From Aspidiotus rigidus (Eukaryota > Arthropoda > Insecta > Hemiptera > Diaspididae): DNA of 64,000 nt. Shown here in pieces: positions 27,973-61,060 of the stretch. The first letter of the stretch is position 1. Each line of letters opens with the position of its first letter. Under the pieces are notes generated by a model that saw nothing but the letters and a program-made list of their open reading frames with translations, had not been told where the DNA came from and did no database searches. The position numbers and the translations under genes were made by a program. The stretch covers positions 9,773,501 through 9,837,500 of the forward strand of contig JAVHKY010000054.1 of NCBI GenBank assembly GCA_035079385.1. Reading direction: 5' to 3'.

Positions 27973-27978
27973 ATTACC
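27973..27978 (+). repeat. Left 6-bp target-site duplication of the palindromic element
   Basis: ATTACC here and at 32339-32344, directly flanking the two termini. Six bp is the target duplication length known for Polinton/Maverick elements. Confidence 0.85.
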
Positions 27979-28021
27979 AGTAGTAAATGGGGCGGCCTAA
28001 GCCGAATAACTGGCAAACTCT

Positions 28022-28100
28022 GACGTCACTGGGCTACTTCAGTACACCATGGCGTTTGAGGACATGTCCTGAAAAGCCATTGGGCTACTTGAATACACTG
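28022..28100. repeat. Subterminal repeats in the palindromic element
   Basis: TGGGCTACTT followed by CAGTACAC or GAATACAC occurs twice (about 28029 and 28083), flanking a GGACATGTCC palindrome, with TGACGTCA at about 28022 and 28104. The right arm mirrors this at 32205-32295. Subterminal repeats can be integrase-binding sites, but that is not shown here. Confidence 0.6.
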
Positions 28101-28272
28101 TAATGACGTCATTTTTTGCCTGTTTTTCGTACTAGGCAGCCCCGCTGCATTGAACGCGAACAACACACTACACGTTTGTTTGAAATACTTTATTATAATG
28201 AACAGTTATTTATGTTTTGTATATTTACGATTGTGTTTTACTCGTGGTAGAATAATAATGATAGTGTGTGGA

Positions 28273-29199
28273 CTAAAATTTAGTACGTTGTAATTCCGGT
28301 TCGTAGAATGTGCTTTTGATACGTTGATCGTTGATATTTTTCAGAACGTATGTAGGTGGTTGCGTATATCTTACACCGCTGATAATAAATACTTGTCGAC
28401 TCCAGTTTGTGTACTCGTATTTGTTTTGAAATTTATGTTTTTTCAACGAATGTTGCGTTTGATCTTTGATAGAGGAAGAATTGGCTTTGAAGGTTGATAT
28501 ACGTACACGATCTCCAACTTTAAATTTAGGTTTAATAAAACGAAAATTGCAAGGTACAATTCCATTGTACGATTGTTGGTAAATTTTTTTTTCGTTTTCT
28601 TTTTTCGACGCCTCCAACGGTGTTGTTTTAATTGTTCTGTGAACGTCTTCTTCGTTATACTGTTTCACAATGGAGGGTAATAAGTTGACCCAATGTTTAT
28701 TTCGATTTACCATACGAAATTTTTCGTTTACAGTTCTGATAACACGTTCGGCGATACATGATTTCTCTTTATTAAGCGTATGATACAATTTGATATTATA
28801 TTTTTCGAGAACACTTCTCGTTTCCCTCGATATGAATTCCGTTCCACGGTCAGTCCACAAAAATTTCGGCTTTCTTTTTGAGGTTTTAATTACTTTCTCC
28901 AGCTCGCGGCTTGTTTCTATACCGGATTTATTTTTCAATGGAAGTAACCATAAAAATTTGGAAAAACAATCTATCAAAACTAAAATATACCGGAATTTGG
29001 CGTAGTTGACGGGAGATTTTTTTTTGGTCGTTCCTTTACGCGGTCTTCCTCTACGTTCAATTCTAAGGTTTTCTTCAGAAAATTTCATCATGTGCATTGT
29101 ATCGGCAGCCCATATTTCGTCTATATGTTGTACAACGATCGAACGTCTCGGGAATTTATTAACTACACGTCGATATAATTCTCTCGCCAACTCGGTCAT
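28273..29199 (-). CDS. Polinton-type integrase, left arm
   Basis: This 308-residue protein has a DDE core: D33 in WAADTMHM, YILVLIDCFSKFLWLLPLK, D117 in FLWTDRGTEF and E151 in CIAERVIRT. The C-terminal domain reads FKVGDRVRIS...PPTYVLKNINDQ, then FYEPELQ, the ending typical of Polinton integrases. Such enzymes insert element DNA and generate the 6-bp duplication. The HHCC zinc domain expected upstream is not present. Relative to the right arm it lacks 3 codons (after KFR). The start overlaps the stop of the upstream frame as ATGA. The frame is intact, and it is transcribed toward the element end. Confidence 0.9.
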   Translation of the reverse strand: MTELARELYRRVVNKFPRRSIVVQHIDEIWAADTMHMMKFSEENLRIERRGRPRKGTTKKKSPVNYAKFRYILVLIDCFSKFLWLLPLKNKSGIETSRELEKVIKTSKRKPKFLWTDRGTEFISRETRSVLEKYNIKLYHTLNKEKSCIAERVIRTVNEKFRMVNRNKHWVNLLPSIVKQYNEEDVHRTIKTTPLEASKKENEKKIYQQSYNGIVPCNFRFIKPKFKVGDRVRISTFKANSSSIKDQTQHSLKKHKFQNKYEYTNWSRQVFIISGVRYTQPPTYVLKNINDQRIKSTFYEPELQRTKF

Positions 29200-29507
29200 T
29201 CTTCTTCTTCTTTCCTACTTCTTTGTTTATTCTTCTTCTTCTTTTTTTCTCTTTTTTGTCGTCTTCGTCGAACGTCTATGTTTCTGTTTCGGTGATGAAG
29301 AAAAAAAGAACAACAGTTATTACTACAATGAGTATTTCGCGAGATTATTAGTATAAGAAACTTTAGAAATATTGTTGTGGCTATACTGATACAATTTCCA
29401 TCGGAAGAATCGCAGGTATTTAAAGAACAGGTAGAGCTATCCTCGGATTCAGTCGTACGATTGTCTTCTTTCGTAGACGATTGCATGGTATCGCGTTCTT
29501 CTCGCAT
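29196..29507 (-). CDS. Small membrane-like basic protein upstream of integrase, left arm
   Basis: This frame encodes 103 residues with a Ser/Thr/Asp-rich start, one hydrophobic segment (ISIATTIFLKFLILIIS, about residues 41-57), a short Cys/His stretch (THCSNNCCSFFLHH) and a strongly basic tail ending RSRKEEEE. It is not recognised. Its stop overlaps the integrase start by ATGA, so coupled translation, frameshifting or splicing into the integrase is possible. The mirror copy at 30802-31113 is identical. Confidence 0.5.
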   Translation of the reverse strand: MREERDTMQSSTKEDNRTTESEDSSTCSLNTCDSSDGNCISIATTIFLKFLILIISRNTHCSNNCCSFFLHHRNRNIDVRRRRQKREKKKKKNKQRSRKEEEE

Positions 29508-29635
29508 TTTTATTTATTTGTTTTCTTACTTTCCTCCGTATGTATAAACCAAACAAAAAAACAAAAAATGGTTTCTCAAGAAAACGTCGTTTCTTTTTTG
29601 ATTACTATACCAATTGAACACATCCCCCATACGTT

Positions 29636-30199
29636 ATGGCAAGCCTAAGGCTGGGCAGTGAACTACATCACTGCCCAGCTTGGTTTCACACCAGGAAAGG
29701 GGCGAAGAGAAATTTGGCACGACTGGCGTACAGATACACGATGTATCATAGGAACCCGCGACAACTAAGGAGAGATGGAGGGGTTGCGCTATTCCCGCCA
29801 CCCGGTAGGCGTGTGGATTATTGTTTAATGGAGAAGGTGGCGAGAGTCACTTATCAACCACCGCCACCACCGCCGCCATTTACACCCATTTCCGTACCAC
29901 CGTCGTCGTCTTTCTTCACTTATGGACCACCACCACCGCCGCCATTGGTTACGCCAACGCCGCCACCGTCGTCGTCGTACTTCAATACTTCCGCGGGACC
30001 ATCGTCATGTACCTGCCAAGCACCTGACGGCCAAGCTGCCATGCAGCCTGTGGAGCAGGCAGCCTGGCAGACTGTGGAGCAGGCAGCCTGGCAGCCTGAC
30101 ACTCGACCGTCAGAGGAGGCTGCAGTCGCAGCGTCCGGACCCCTCCCCCTCCAGTTGGAGGGGGAGGGGTCCGGACGCTGCGACTGCAGCCTCCTCTGA
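29636..30199 (+). CDS. Proline-rich protein running across the palindrome centre
   Basis: 187 residues: a basic N-terminal part (residues 1-50, KGAKRNLARLAYRYTMYHRN), then polyproline blocks (QPPPPPPPF, YGPPPPPPL), PSSSYFNTS, and a repeat QPVEQAAWQTVEQAAWQ. The final residues come from the opposite arm, so the native C-terminus was lost when the palindrome formed. It diverges from the integrase gene. The family is not recognised; it may be a structural gene of the parent Polinton. Confidence 0.5.
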   Translation: MASLRLGSELHHCPAWFHTRKGAKRNLARLAYRYTMYHRNPRQLRRDGGVALFPPPGRRVDYCLMEKVARVTYQPPPPPPPFTPISVPPSSSFFTYGPPPPPPLVTPTPPPSSSYFNTSAGPSSCTCQAPDGQAAMQPVEQAAWQTVEQAAWQPDTRPSEEAAVAASGPLPLQLEGEGSGRCDCSLL

Positions 30200-30673
30200 C
30201 GGTCGAGTGTCAGGCTGCCAGGCTGCCTGCTCCACAGTCTGCCAGGCTGCCTGCTCCACAGGCTGCATGGCAGCTTGGCCGTCAGGTGCTTGGCAGGTAC
30301 ATGACGATGGTCCCGCGGAAGTATTGAAGTACGACGACGACGGTGGCGGCGTTGGCGTAACCAATGGCGGCGGTGGTGGTGGTCCATAAGTGAAGAAAGA
30401 CGACGACGGTGGTACGGAAATGGGTGTAAATGGCGGCGGTGGTGGCGGTGGTTGATAAGTGACTCTCGCCACCTTCTCCATTAAACAATAATCCACACGC
30501 CTACCGGGTGGCGGGAATAGCGCAACCCCTCCATCTCTCCTTAGTTGTCGCGGGTTCCTATGATACATCGTGTATCTGTACGCCAGTCGTGCCAAATTTC
30601 TCTTCGCCCCTTTCCTGGTGTGAAACCAAGCTGGGCAGTGATGTAGTTCACTGCCCAGCCTTAGGCTTGCCAT
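30110..30673 (-). CDS. Mirror copy of the proline-rich protein
   Basis: Predicted protein identical to the copy at 29636-30199, encoded on the opposite strand. The two frames overlap tail to tail by 90 bp across the centre. Transcripts of both would be complementary over the whole arm. Confidence 0.5.
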   Translation of the reverse strand: MASLRLGSELHHCPAWFHTRKGAKRNLARLAYRYTMYHRNPRQLRRDGGVALFPPPGRRVDYCLMEKVARVTYQPPPPPPPFTPISVPPSSSFFTYGPPPPPPLVTPTPPPSSSYFNTSAGPSSCTCQAPDGQAAMQPVEQAAWQTVEQAAWQPDTRPSEEAAVAASGPLPLQLEGEGSGRCDCSLL

Positions 30674-30801
30674 AACGTATGGGGGATGTGTTCAATTGGT
30701 ATAGTAATCAAAAAAGAAACGACGTTTTCTTGAGAAACCATTTTTTGTTTTTTTGTTTGGTTTATACATACGGAGGAAAGTAAGAAAACAAATAAATAAA
30801 A

Positions 30802-31113
30802 ATGCGAGAAGAACGCGATACCATGCAATCGTCTACGAAAGAAGACAATCGTACGACTGAATCCGAGGATAGCTCTACCTGTTCTTTAAATACCTGCGAT
30901 TCTTCCGATGGAAATTGTATCAGTATAGCCACAACAATATTTCTAAAGTTTCTTATACTAATAATCTCGCGAAATACTCATTGTAGTAATAACTGTTGTT
31001 CTTTTTTTCTTCATCACCGAAACAGAAACATAGACGTTCGACGAAGACGACAAAAAAGAGAAAAAAAGAAGAAGAAGAATAAACAAAGAAGTAGGAAAGA
31101 AGAAGAAGAATGA
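30802..31113 (+). CDS. Small membrane-like basic protein upstream of integrase, right arm
   Basis: Identical in sequence to the left-arm copy (103 residues, one hydrophobic segment, basic tail). The stop overlaps the integrase ATG at 31110 (ATGA). Function unknown. Confidence 0.5.
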   Translation: MREERDTMQSSTKEDNRTTESEDSSTCSLNTCDSSDGNCISIATTIFLKFLILIISRNTHCSNNCCSFFLHHRNRNIDVRRRRQKREKKKKKNKQRSRKEEEE

Positions 31114-32044
31114 CCGAGTTGGCGAGAGAATTATATCGACGTGTAGTTAATAAATTCCCGAGACGTTCGATCGTTGTACAACATATAGACGAAATATGGG
31201 CTGCCGATACAATGCACATGATGAAATTTTCTGAAGAAAACCTTAGAATTGAACGTAGAGGAAGACCGCGTAAAGGAACGACCAAAAAAAAATCTCCCGT
31301 CAACTACGCCAAATTCCGGTATATTTTAGTTTTGATAGATTGTTTTTCCAAATTTTTATGGTTACTTCCATTGAAAAATAAATCCGGTATAGAAACAAGC
31401 CGCGAGCTGGAGAAAGTAATTAAAACCTCAAAAAGAAAGCCGAAATTTTTGTGGACTGACCGTGGAACGGAATTCATATCGAGGGAAACGAGAAGTGTTC
31501 TCGAAAAATATAATATCAAATTGTATCATACGCTTAATAAAGAGAAATCATGTATCGCCGAACGTGTTATCAGAACTGTAAACGAAAAATTTCGTATATT
31601 ATTCGAGGTAAATCGAAATAAACATTGGGTCAACTTATTACCCTCCATTGTGAAACAGTATAACGAAGAAGACGTTCACAGAACAATTAAAACAACACCG
31701 TTGGAGGCGTCGAAAAAAGAAAACGAAAAAAAATTTACCAACAATCGTACAATGGAATTGTACCTTGCAATTTTCGTTTTATTAAACCTAAATTTAAAGT
31801 TGGAGATCGTGTACGTATATCAACCTTCAAAGCCAATTCTTCCTCTATCAAAGATCAAACGCAACATTCGTTGAAAAAACATAAATTTCAAAACAAATAC
31901 GAGTACACAAACTGGAGTCGACAAGTATTTATTATCAGCGGTGTAAGATATACGCAACCACCTACATACGTTCTGAAAAATATCAACGATCAACGTATCA
32001 AAAGCACATTCTACGAACCGGAATTACAACGTACTAAATTTTAG
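31110..32044 (+). pseudogene. Polinton-type integrase, right arm (frameshifted)
   Basis: Same gene as in the left arm with D33, D117 and the ER motif intact. It has three extra codons (after KFR) and one fewer A in an A-run near 31730 (8 versus 9). The missing base shifts the frame after about residue 211, so the open frame ends at 31874 and the C-terminal domain (to 32044) is read in another frame. A homopolymer sequencing error is an alternative explanation. Confidence 0.85.
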
Positions 32045-32338
32045 TCCACACACTATCATTATTATTCTACCACGAGTAAAACACAATCGTAAATATACAA
32101 AACATAAATAACTGTTCATTATAATAAAGTATTTCAAACAAACGTGTAGTGTGTTGTTCGCGTTCAATGCAGCGGGGCTGCCTAGTACGAAAAACAGGCA
32201 AAAAATGACGTCATTACAGTGTATTCAAGTAGCCCAATGGCTTTTCAGGACATGTCCTCAAACGCCATGGTGTACTGAAGTAGCCCAGTGACGTCAGAGT
32301 TTGCCAGTTATTCGGCTTAGGCCGCCCCATTTACTACT

Positions 32339-32344
32339 ATTACC
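32339..32344 (+). repeat. Right 6-bp target-site duplication of the palindromic element
   Basis: ATTACC, matching 27973-27978. Confidence 0.85.
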
Positions 32345-58671: not shown

Positions 58672-58994
58672 AAAGGGTATAGCCGGGTAAGATGGTGAAA
58701 AGTGCCCCCAAACGAAATCGAATTCTGAGCTTGGTGTATGGTGGGACTATGCTTAAAACTCGCCAATTCCAATTTTCAGACCCCTAGCTCACTCCAGTGG
58801 CTCTGGGCAACAAAATATGTGATTTTTCTTTAAAAAATTGTAAACAATTTGGTAATGTAAAAATGAAAAAAAGGTATGAAGTATATTGTGGTGTGTTGTG
58901 AGACGTTTTTAAAGAAAAAAAATTTTGGTTTTTTGCATCAATTTTGGACCTCTGCGATCGATTTTAAGATTTAAAAATGGGATAAAATCCTATT
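58672..58994. repeat. Left 323-bp terminal inverted repeat
   Basis: Reverse complement of 60738-61060. Confidence 0.9.
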
Positions 58995-59150
58995 ATTCTG
59001 AATAGACTTATACTAGACGAAGAAGGGGGCGAACGAGCGATTACTAGCTTAGTATACTAGGCCTCATTCCTAATATACAGTATACAAGTTGACTAATGAA
59101 ATATAAAGACATGAAACATGATCTTCATTTATTTGGCTACGCCAGAAAAT

Positions 59151-59354
59151 TTTTAGATCACTTTCTGTCATCTCTAGAAAATCCAATATATCTGCTTATG
59201 TTATTTTTTCAAATAACGATTTTCTTCTCGTCCAACGGTTCCCTTCCACCTCTGCAGCCAGCGAATTTTCTTTCTGTTGACTTTTTTTCTCCATCTCTAT
59301 AAAAATTTCCTCCGCAAGCTCTTGATCAGAAGCTTGAAACCGCTTACTGAACAT
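59151..59354. repeat. Inverted copy of transposase sequence
   Basis: Reverse complement of 59741-59941 apart from a 3-bp indel and rare substitutions. It places part of the transposase gene in antisense upstream of the sense copy, so the transcript could fold back. Confidence 0.85.
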
Positions 59355-59423
59355 CGTTGTTGGAACTCTTTTGATGAGTGACATACGTACCATCGAAAAT
59401 TAAAACCAAATGACGCTCAAATT

Positions 59424-59699
59424 ATGAAGGAAGCCTTGCAAGATGGTAATGGCCTGAAGAGCCTGATGCGGAAAAACGATCATTGTGTTGTTGATCGCGG
59501 CTTTAGAGATGTTGAAGCATCCCTGAGGGAGCTCGGTTATTTAGTTTGTATGCCAGCTCTAAAAGGGAAACGTAAGCAATTGACAACTCAGGAGGCAAAT
59601 GAATCTCGTAAAGTAACTAGAGTTCGTTGGGTAGTGGAGGTCTCCCACGGCGACATTGGCCAGAAGTTCAAGTTACTTCATAATCAGGTTGATAAATAA
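59424..59699 (+). pseudogene. DDE-type transposase, catalytic-region fragment
   Basis: 91 codons: CVVDRGFRDVEASLRELGYLV (second catalytic Asp), CMPALKGKRKQLTTQEANESRKVTRVRWVVEVSHGDIGQ (catalytic Glu region) and FKLLHNQV. The pattern fits DDE_Tnp_4-like transposases of IS5/ISL2EU-related eukaryotic elements. The first catalytic Asp and N-terminus are missing. A stop at 59697 separates it from the next frame. Confidence 0.7.
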
Positions 59700-59740
59700 C
59701 TTCTGCCGAGTCTCGGGACAAGGCATGCTTACTCCATAAT

Positions 59741-60337
59741 ATGTTCAGTAAGCGGCTTCAAGCTTCTGATCAAGAGCTTGCGGAGGAAATTTTTATAGAG
59801 ATGGAGAAAAAAAGTCAACAGAAAGAAAATTCGCTGGCTGTAGAGGTGGAAGGGAACCGTTGGACGAGAAGATCGTTATTTGAAAAAATAACATAAGCAG
59901 ATATATTGGATTTTCCAGAGATGACAGAAAGTGATCTAAAAGTGCCTTTCACAGGCACCTACCAATTGAAGCAAGCCGTTTCCTATCTCGCAGAGATGAT
60001 GGACGACGATAATAGTATAAATGCAGAGTTTCTAAAAGAAAATAAAAATATTATACAGTTTTCCGTCCAATCGCGGCATATTAATTCTAAGAAGTATAAA
60101 TGTTTTATCGATTATGTGCCAAATTCAATAGGTTCTGCCAGCATAAAGCGGTATTGCTGCGAATGCGCCAATGGTCTCAGAACTGTTGGTTGCTGCTCAC
60201 ATGTTGCATCTATTATATATTACCTCAGCCACGCACGATATTTGTCAAAAATTGTAAGGCCAGCGGAAATATTGAGTAAATTGTTTCACATTAAGAATAC
60301 GGTCGCAGTGATAAATGAGGATAGCGATGAAGATTGA
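59741..60337 (+). pseudogene. DDE-type transposase C-terminal part with SWIM-like zinc motif
   Basis: Starting with MFSKRFQASDQELAEEIFIEME, broken by a stop near 59897, then open at 59906-60337: FPEMTESDLKVPFTGTYQLKQAVSYL, FSVQSRHINSKKYKCFIDY, and RYCCECANGLRTVGCCSHVA, which fits C-x-C-x8-C-x-H of SWIM zinc fingers. Arrangement and order match the C-terminal region of the same transposase family. The end is acidic (NEDSDED). Confidence 0.72.
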
Positions 60338-60737
60338 GATACCAAGTTGAGGTACCTATGCTTAGGATATTTGTCTCAATCTAAATCTGTATAAGTTATA
60401 TATTCTAGAGTTTTCATGCATGTATATTTTACAATTTAAACTTATTCTAATCTATTTTTACTATTTTTTTATGATGTAAGAACTGGTGAGTGAGGGAGAT
60501 AAGGGAGGGGGCTTGAAGTTGATTTATGCAAAAACTAGCAGCCGGGCCATCATACTTCATATTTACAGTCAAATTTCCCTCGGGGAATGTCCATAATAAT
60601 ATCTAATTCCAATATTATTAAACTAAATTCAACTTTTAAATACCGTCCCCCCCACGTATCGAGCTGAAATTTTTATATGTTATGTGAATAGATGCAGATT
60701 ATCACATATTAAAAAATTGGCTTGGTGCGGCCCCTTA
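60338..60737. other. Non-coding interior of the DDE transposon
   Basis: Sequence between transposase stop and right terminal repeat; no motif noticed. Confidence 0.6.
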
Positions 60738-61060
60738 AATAGGATTTTATCCCATTTTTAAATCTTAAAATCGATCGCAGAGGTCCAAAATTGATGCAAA
60801 AAACCAAAATTTTTTTTCTTTAAAAACGTCTCACAACACACCACAATATACTTCATACCTTTTTTTCATTTTTACATTACCAAATTGTTTACAATTTTTT
60901 AAAGAAAAATCACATATTTTGTTGCCCAGAGCCACTGGAGTGAGCTAGGGGTCTGAAAATTGGAATTGGCGAGTTTTAAGCATAGTCCCACCATACACCA
61001 AGCTCAGAATTCGATTTCGTTTGGGGGCACTTTTCACCATCTTACCCGGCTATACCCTTT
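60738..61060. repeat. Right 323-bp terminal inverted repeat
   Basis: Reverse complement of 58672-58994. Confidence 0.9.

Follow-up and report, generated by a model that had tools for sequence, protein, structure and literature searches.

The 64,000 nt of Aspidiotus rigidus contig JAVHKY010000054.1 (also labelled C54) that were analysed here, called the window and used for all coordinates without a contig label, contain a near-perfect palindrome derived from a Polinton/Maverick element, whose structure and probable origin are our subject. The palindrome is 4,360 bp long and occupies positions 27979-32338, or 27973-32344 with the flanking copies of ATTACC included (Table 1). Reverse-complement alignment of the left and right arms reveals no substitution in 2,174 aligned positions and two indels, one of nine nucleotides, the other a T run near 28584 that differs in length by one base. 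The termini read AGTAGTAAATGG...CCATTTACTACT, with AGTAGT...ACTACT outermost, and ATTACC is present as a direct repeat on both sides. The chance of a 6-bp match is 1/4,096, while the palindrome itself is far beyond chance. The sequence beyond the 6-bp repeat is not mirrored, hence the mirror symmetry halts at the element ends. An earlier, preliminary description of this DNA had reported arms of about 2.18 kb as reverse complements around a 2-bp centre, AG...CT ends and ATTACC on both sides, all of which are borne out by the alignment; its proposal of insertion as one unit with a 6-bp duplication is supported by ATTACC and by the arrest of the mirror at the ends.

A parent-like full element resides in the same genome, of which 441.1 Mb in 102 contigs were searched (29 of 29 candidates scored in the search with the arm, the counts being lower bounds). 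At C12:5223977-5249986 lies a full-size Polinton of 26,010 bp with the target duplication TATCTA. Separately fetched pieces of it contain PolB (PF03175, in two frames), double-jelly-roll (PF21738), PLA2-like (PF08398) and TBP-like (PF00352) domains, and its integrase frame is open. A full Polinton sharing the arm is thus found in the source genome, and the Polinton derivation put forward in the preliminary description is supported. Because the two terminal repeats of the C12 element differ from each other, with the first separating base at about position 27, the type of an end can be told. The two window ends belong to the integrase-end type, with 6 differences in 174 positions from the C12 integrase end versus 30 in 173 from the other end. 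The typing discriminates, since a 174-bp element on C56 (duplication TTAATC) carries one end of each type. Near the C12 integrase we also observe a TATA-binding-protein-like gene (L021:2-382, minus strand; PF00352 at E 8.1e-23, PDB TBP chains at 4e-30); a similar frame, identified by eye, stands beside an integrase on C39 (L018:1472-1999, minus strand), and the term 'TATA-binding protein' has zero occurrences in the best-ranked matches of our literature search.

What do the arms contain? The outer 1,643 bp align with the C12 integrase end with 29 substitutions in 1,610 positions (1.8%) and seven indels. The Pfam rve domain is detected in both integrases (E 2.7e-11 left, 1.7e-11 right), and this domain, together with the relatives and a 99% identity to the C12 integrase, assigns the window integrase to the Polinton type; missing residues aside, seven silent and three replacement codon changes separate the two genes. 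The claim of a Polinton-type integrase in each arm therefore stands for the domain and has to be amended for the gene, as the right frame is broken and the left one lacks three residues. The structure model of the integrase is poor (mean pLDDT 54.7). The inner segment has a GC content of 50-68%, as against 31-47% further out in the arm, and its 532 bp align, with gaps and 22 substitutions in 457 positions, to the 5' part of the C12 proline-rich gene, about 10 kb away and inverted in relative orientation. With an inner part drawn from a distant gene in opposite orientation, the window arm is a rearranged piece and not a plain Polinton end. The junction at 29621/29622 falls where the C12 copy has a 10-bp inverted repeat; this was noticed post hoc, and the 25,504 nt of C12 pieces contain three repeats of this kind (arms of at least 9 bp, loop of at most 6 nt), the one at the junction included. 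A Pfam scan of the element's four longest gene-like frames found no PolB, capsid, ATPase or protease, the inner-segment frame has no homologue at E 0.001, and no relative came out of IMG/VR when it was scanned with the integrase frame of the right arm, with its nearest relative and with an alignment of six. A match to a 17-nt terminal pattern on one 543-kb contig was discarded as a chance match.

Table 1. Features of the palindromic element in window positions (strand: +, - or. for none).
Feature	Position	Strand	Remark
Left copy of the 6-bp target-site duplication ATTACC	27973..27978	.	
Left palindrome arm, 2,175 nt	27979..30153	.	reverse complement of right arm
Terminal 171-nt repeat, quasi-palindrome, integrase-end type	27979..28149	+	DNA hairpin -38.3 kcal/mol, z -5.9
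Outer left-arm segment, 1,643 bp	27979..29621	.	matches integrase end of C12 full Polinton
Polinton-type integrase, left arm, open 308-aa frame	28273..29199	-	three residues shorter than C12 copy
103-aa frame, left arm	29196..29507	-	near-identical frame adjoins integrase in full Polinton (L021 963-1292)
Inner left-arm segment, 532 bp	29622..30153	+	5' part of proline-rich gene (282-aa frame in L022), inverted relative to full element
Palindrome centre GT, 2 nt	30154..30155	.	
Right palindrome arm, 2,183 nt	30156..32338	.	reverse complement of left arm
Inner right-arm segment	30156..30687	-	mirror of 29622-30153
103-aa frame, right arm	30802..31113	+	
Integrase, right arm, frame broken (254 aa)	31110..31874	+	
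9 nt in right arm only, no left-arm counterpart	31598..31606	+	arm alignment
Right-end terminal 171-nt repeat	32168..32338	-	outer 175 nt identical between both ends
Right copy of the 6-bp target-site duplication ATTACC	32339..32344	.	

Searching the genome with the 171-bp terminal repeat (15 of 15 candidates scored) yields 30 matches at ten loci, all ten of which were inspected: the window palindrome, the C12 full element, a copy on C35, two palindromes on C29, copies on C56, C41 and C3, and fragments on C23 and at 12.57 Mb of C29. The C35 copy is a non-palindromic two-ended deletion of 1,599 bp with the duplication CACTGT; the stand-alone copies on C41 (175 bp) and C3 (173 bp) are similar to the terminal repeat and are without a clear duplication. 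The C56 element was considered as a fold-back and dropped: having one end of each type, it belongs with the ordinary two-ended deletions. The check for further copies sharing the centre that the preliminary description suggested was negative: no second copy with the window centre occurs among the matches listed in the arm and terminal-repeat searches, which give lower bounds. The two palindromes at 8.18 Mb of C29 are 1,880 and 1,889 bp long, have a 50-nt loop and the duplication CTTCAG, and hold just part of the integrase gene. Their arms differ at 22 of 910 and 26 of 915 positions, which makes this palindrome older than the one in the window. The pair forms an inverted match over 2,980 bp, flank included, at 97%, and the two duplications are reverse complements of each other; given these and the shared flanks, we read the pair as one insertion that was later duplicated, and two separate insertions were dismissed because the flanks are shared. 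In the C35 relative, GCAG faces CTGC where the palindrome turns (read by eye), the arrangement to be expected had the end of a strand folded back and primed there. As a side observation, the locus (L010/L011, C29:8174500-8191500) presents itself as an older palindrome inside a 3-kb inverted duplication, and all arm comparisons are about 2-3% apart, as if insertion and duplication had been close in time.

A further palindrome belongs to a different Polinton family. The genome search with the integrase protein (128 of 799 candidates scored, at least 163 matches) lists many Polinton-type integrases in open frames; opposite-strand integrase pairs less than 8 kb apart occur at four loci among the matches listed, namely the window, the two C29 8.18-Mb copies and a locus at 2.78 Mb of C29. 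The latter is a 6,234-bp palindrome (C29:2778274-2784507) with a 4-nt centre and the duplication GACAGC, whose arms differ by none of 3,113 positions and two indels. Both arms carry identical open integrase frames with 44% identity to the window integrase, and a protease-like frame gives a match to PF00770 that falls short of the curated threshold (E 0.021). At the turn, three non-palindromic relatives (L028-L030) read TGGTT-AATG-AACCA-AGTGC and the palindrome reads TGGTT-AATG-AACCA-GTAAT; GTAAT after AACCA is what copying back from AACCA paired to TGGTT would yield. The insertion lies in a host tandem repeat, five neighbouring units of which align across the insertion point at 82-86% and represent paralogous empty sites; a single GACAGC is seen in the two empty-site alignments shown, of the five units. 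A 2,317-nt arm probe (40 of 130 candidates scored) detects at least 12 further full-length loci at 98-100%, with one arm each among the matches listed; three of these 12 were inspected (L028-L030). Such a number of near-identical loci indicates that the second family was recently active, and the palindrome is one of 13 full-probe insertions of its family among the matches listed. Two deletion derivatives of related type, at 3.32 Mb of C3 (GTTATT) and 3.25 Mb of C41 (TGAATT), join C35 and C56, so that ordinary deletion derivatives with 6-bp duplications number four.

Several Polinton families are represented by many near-identical copies with open integrase frames, the arm probe matching at about 100% (rounded) on C50, C33 and C12, and the near-identity of such copies suggests recent activity. 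Two loci on C55, C55:707359-709786 (L031, C55:705500-711800) and C55:536923 (L034, C55:535000-539500), have inverted arms of about 0.6-0.7 kb, both integrase-end related, around an incompletely mirrored middle; these are possibly older asymmetric snapbacks and, with unclear element ends, were left out of the palindrome count. At C74:532864-548083 two oppositely oriented integrase matches are about 15 kb apart.

How might such structures originate? In our judgement the window element probably arose when a symmetric snapback (fold-back) deletion genome of a Polinton/Maverick inserted into the chromosome. All three palindromes retain the integrase end, their duplications are ATTACC, GACAGC and CTTCAG, and their centres differ among all three. 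Three palindromic insertions in two families have the integrase end on both sides, end at the termini and are flanked by 6-bp duplications. Together these features point to linear molecules which reversed direction during replication and were integrated afterwards. In the C29 2.78-Mb and 8.18-Mb palindromes the turning point falls at a short inverted repeat of relatives, and these two further cases lend support to the snapback origin suggested in the preliminary description. A free linear Polinton copy, presumably extrachromosomal, would be replicated from its integrase end. The new strand would leave its template and join the inverted part of the proline-rich gene at the 10-bp inverted repeat; about 530 nt further on, it would fold back and copy its own sequence to the terminus. 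Out of this would come a palindromic duplex that has the same integrase-bearing end left and right, and a Polinton integrase, its own or that of a helper, might insert it like a full element, duplicating 6 bp of the target. We infer the copying by protein-primed PolB, the free molecule and the acting integrase alike. The preliminary notion of one Polinton end duplicated head to head is correct as to the duplication, both ends being of the integrase-end type, but not as to a single end, the arm being composite.

Some observations weigh against a snapback origin. The C12 copy contains no inverted repeat able to prime a 2-nt turn at the window centre, which leaves this turn with a weaker explanation than those of the other two palindromes. 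A further switch has to be assumed to account for the inverted inner segment. All palindromes come from one genome assembly and are known from assembled sequence alone. The integrase-end bias of the palindromes is only suggestive, as there are three of them and the queries were partly integrase or integrase-end sequences; queries of this type would miss other-end palindromes unless the shared terminal repeat were present.

The 6-bp duplication and the paralogous empty sites would both survive as well if a full Polinton had inserted at ATTACC and chromosomal fold-back or break repair had later swapped its far half for an inverted integrase half, reaching the left flank by a switch at the terminal repeats. 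The terminal repeats do offer a switching site, and the C29 8.18-Mb palindrome lies inside a 3-kb inverted duplication, so that palindromes accompany chromosomal rearrangement here. Both window terminal repeats are, however, of the integrase-end type and, with the first base separating the C12 end types at about position 27, the switch would be confined to the outermost 26 bp or so; in addition, copy-back stopping exactly at the terminus would be needed independently in three insertions of two families. We regard conversion in place as improbable. Simple gap repair with end joining would require two independent copying tracts to halt at mirror positions to within 2 or 4 nt, the precision seen in two of the three palindromes; such a coincidence is hardly to be expected, and this explanation was rejected. 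A nearly perfect palindrome that is known from an assembly and not from raw reads also invites the suspicion of an inverted chimera arising in assembly, amplification or reads. A chimera should mirror the flank too, but here the two flanks are unlike and bear a 6-bp direct repeat; the arms are distinguished by a 9-nt indel, the fetched loci sit on contigs of 2 to 28 Mb, and three palindromes have three different duplications, one of them with paralogous empty sites. The chance of an artefact is accordingly very slight.

An integrase frame kept in one arm of the window element and in each arm of the C29 2.78-Mb palindrome, together with the integrase end kept in all three palindromes, would suit a self-propagating lineage of mini-Polintons with two integrases that transpose as palindromes and form a class of their own. 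Yet among the matches listed no palindrome is found at a second transposition site, the three centres are different, and the C29 8.18-Mb copies have a partial integrase gene only. With the C29 8.18-Mb pair reduced to one insertion and the C29 2.78-Mb palindrome to one of 13 listed insertions, the distinct self-mobilising class envisaged in the preliminary description finds no backing, and we think such a lineage quite unlikely; recurrent new formation from full Polintons fits better than propagation of palindromes. Long inverted arms could also recall an unrelated cut-and-paste transposon with long terminal repeats, such as Foldback/Galileo (P superfamily) or Ginger2/TDD, and a Gypsy-like integrase domain is also present in Ginger elements, according to the accessible part of PMC2836005. 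Very long inverted terminal repeats are indeed common to the window element and Foldback/Galileo as portrayed in extracts of PMC3573991 and PMC3688188; Foldback/Galileo elements, however, have a P-superfamily transposase and are not Polinton-derived. The four element frames scanned with Pfam contain no P-type transposase, and the integrase frames contain no zinc-finger family (Pfam, E 0.1), whereas Ginger2/TDD is marked by an N-terminal zinc finger and TGTNR termini. The ends are AGTAGT and not TGTNR. Integrase family and terminal repeat are Polinton, and so is the parent-like element, which has PolB and a capsid-type domain; an unrelated transposon is scarcely conceivable.

Adenovirus palindromic defective genomes and the short palindromic DNA of phage phi29 are products of protein-primed linear replication in which one end is mirrored, and they are not known to be integrated. 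For adeno-associated virus (AAV), snapbacks both symmetric and asymmetric, the latter with a loop, have been published alongside genome deletion mutants, as extracts of PMC8235507 relate. The insertions described here likewise have one genome end mirrored around no loop or a loop, beside two-ended deletions: the window element and the C29 2.78-Mb palindrome match the symmetric class, the C29 8.18-Mb palindrome the asymmetric one, and C35, C56, C3 3.32 Mb and C41 3.25 Mb the two-ended deletions. Unlike AAV, which in the same extracts replicates by rolling hairpin and has its molecules packaged in particles, the insertions here lie in the chromosome and come from an element whose polymerase is of the protein-primed type. 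The Podospora invertron plasmids, for example pAL2-1, resemble our case in being linear and protein-primed, with inverted terminal repeats and integrated forms with inverted repeats; pAL2-1 differs in being mitochondrial, and the inverted repeats reported in the available portion of PMC1864894 are flanking mitochondrial DNA, not plasmid. Vertebrate Mavericks have ends of the (AG)3 or (AGT)2 type, (AGT)2//(ACT)2, and 6-bp duplications, and their end repeats have been linked to protein-primed 'jumping back' (PMC8097293, in extract). As far as Polintons/Mavericks are depicted in the accessible parts of PMC8097293 and PMC4046053, the window element shares with them the AGTAGT...ACTACT ends, the 6-bp duplication and the Polinton-type integrase, and it has a full relative in the same genome. 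It departs from Polintons in its mirror-image integrase-end arms, in having no PolB, capsid or protease gene in the four scanned frames and in its size, 4.36 kb against 12.7-24.6 kb for the intact vertebrate Mavericks of the PMC8097293 extract.

In the titles and abstract openings of the best-ranked literature matches, from a search mostly outside subscription journals, there is no published description of a palindromic, fold-back or snapback Polinton. Polinton replication, including replication as free linear genomes, has so far been inferred from genes and ends (PMC4046053 and PMC8097293, both in extract). Integrated snapbacks, with turning points that are readable against parent-like copies in the same genome, would amount to a footprint of such replication and make it directly testable in one organism; they would also bring genomes of the defective-interfering type into the life cycle of a transposon-virus of eukaryotes. 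As a signature for searches elsewhere, one may take two Polinton integrases in inverted orientation, separated by a few kb, within one 6-bp duplication. We tentatively entertain the wider, rather doubtful possibility that Polintons here replicate off the chromosome as linear germ-line genomes, produce symmetric and asymmetric snapbacks and two-ended deletions as linear DNA viruses do, and integrate these via the Polinton integrase; integrase-bearing palindromes could then be helper-dependent satellites or hairpin-RNA loci that silence the parent Polinton.

Elsewhere in the window, positions 58672-61060 form a transposon-like stretch with 323-bp inverted repeats, within which the frame 59897-60334 has no Pfam match at E 0.01 and displays, by eye, a SWIM-like cysteine pattern. 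The window also holds retrotransposon reverse-transcriptase domains outside the palindrome.

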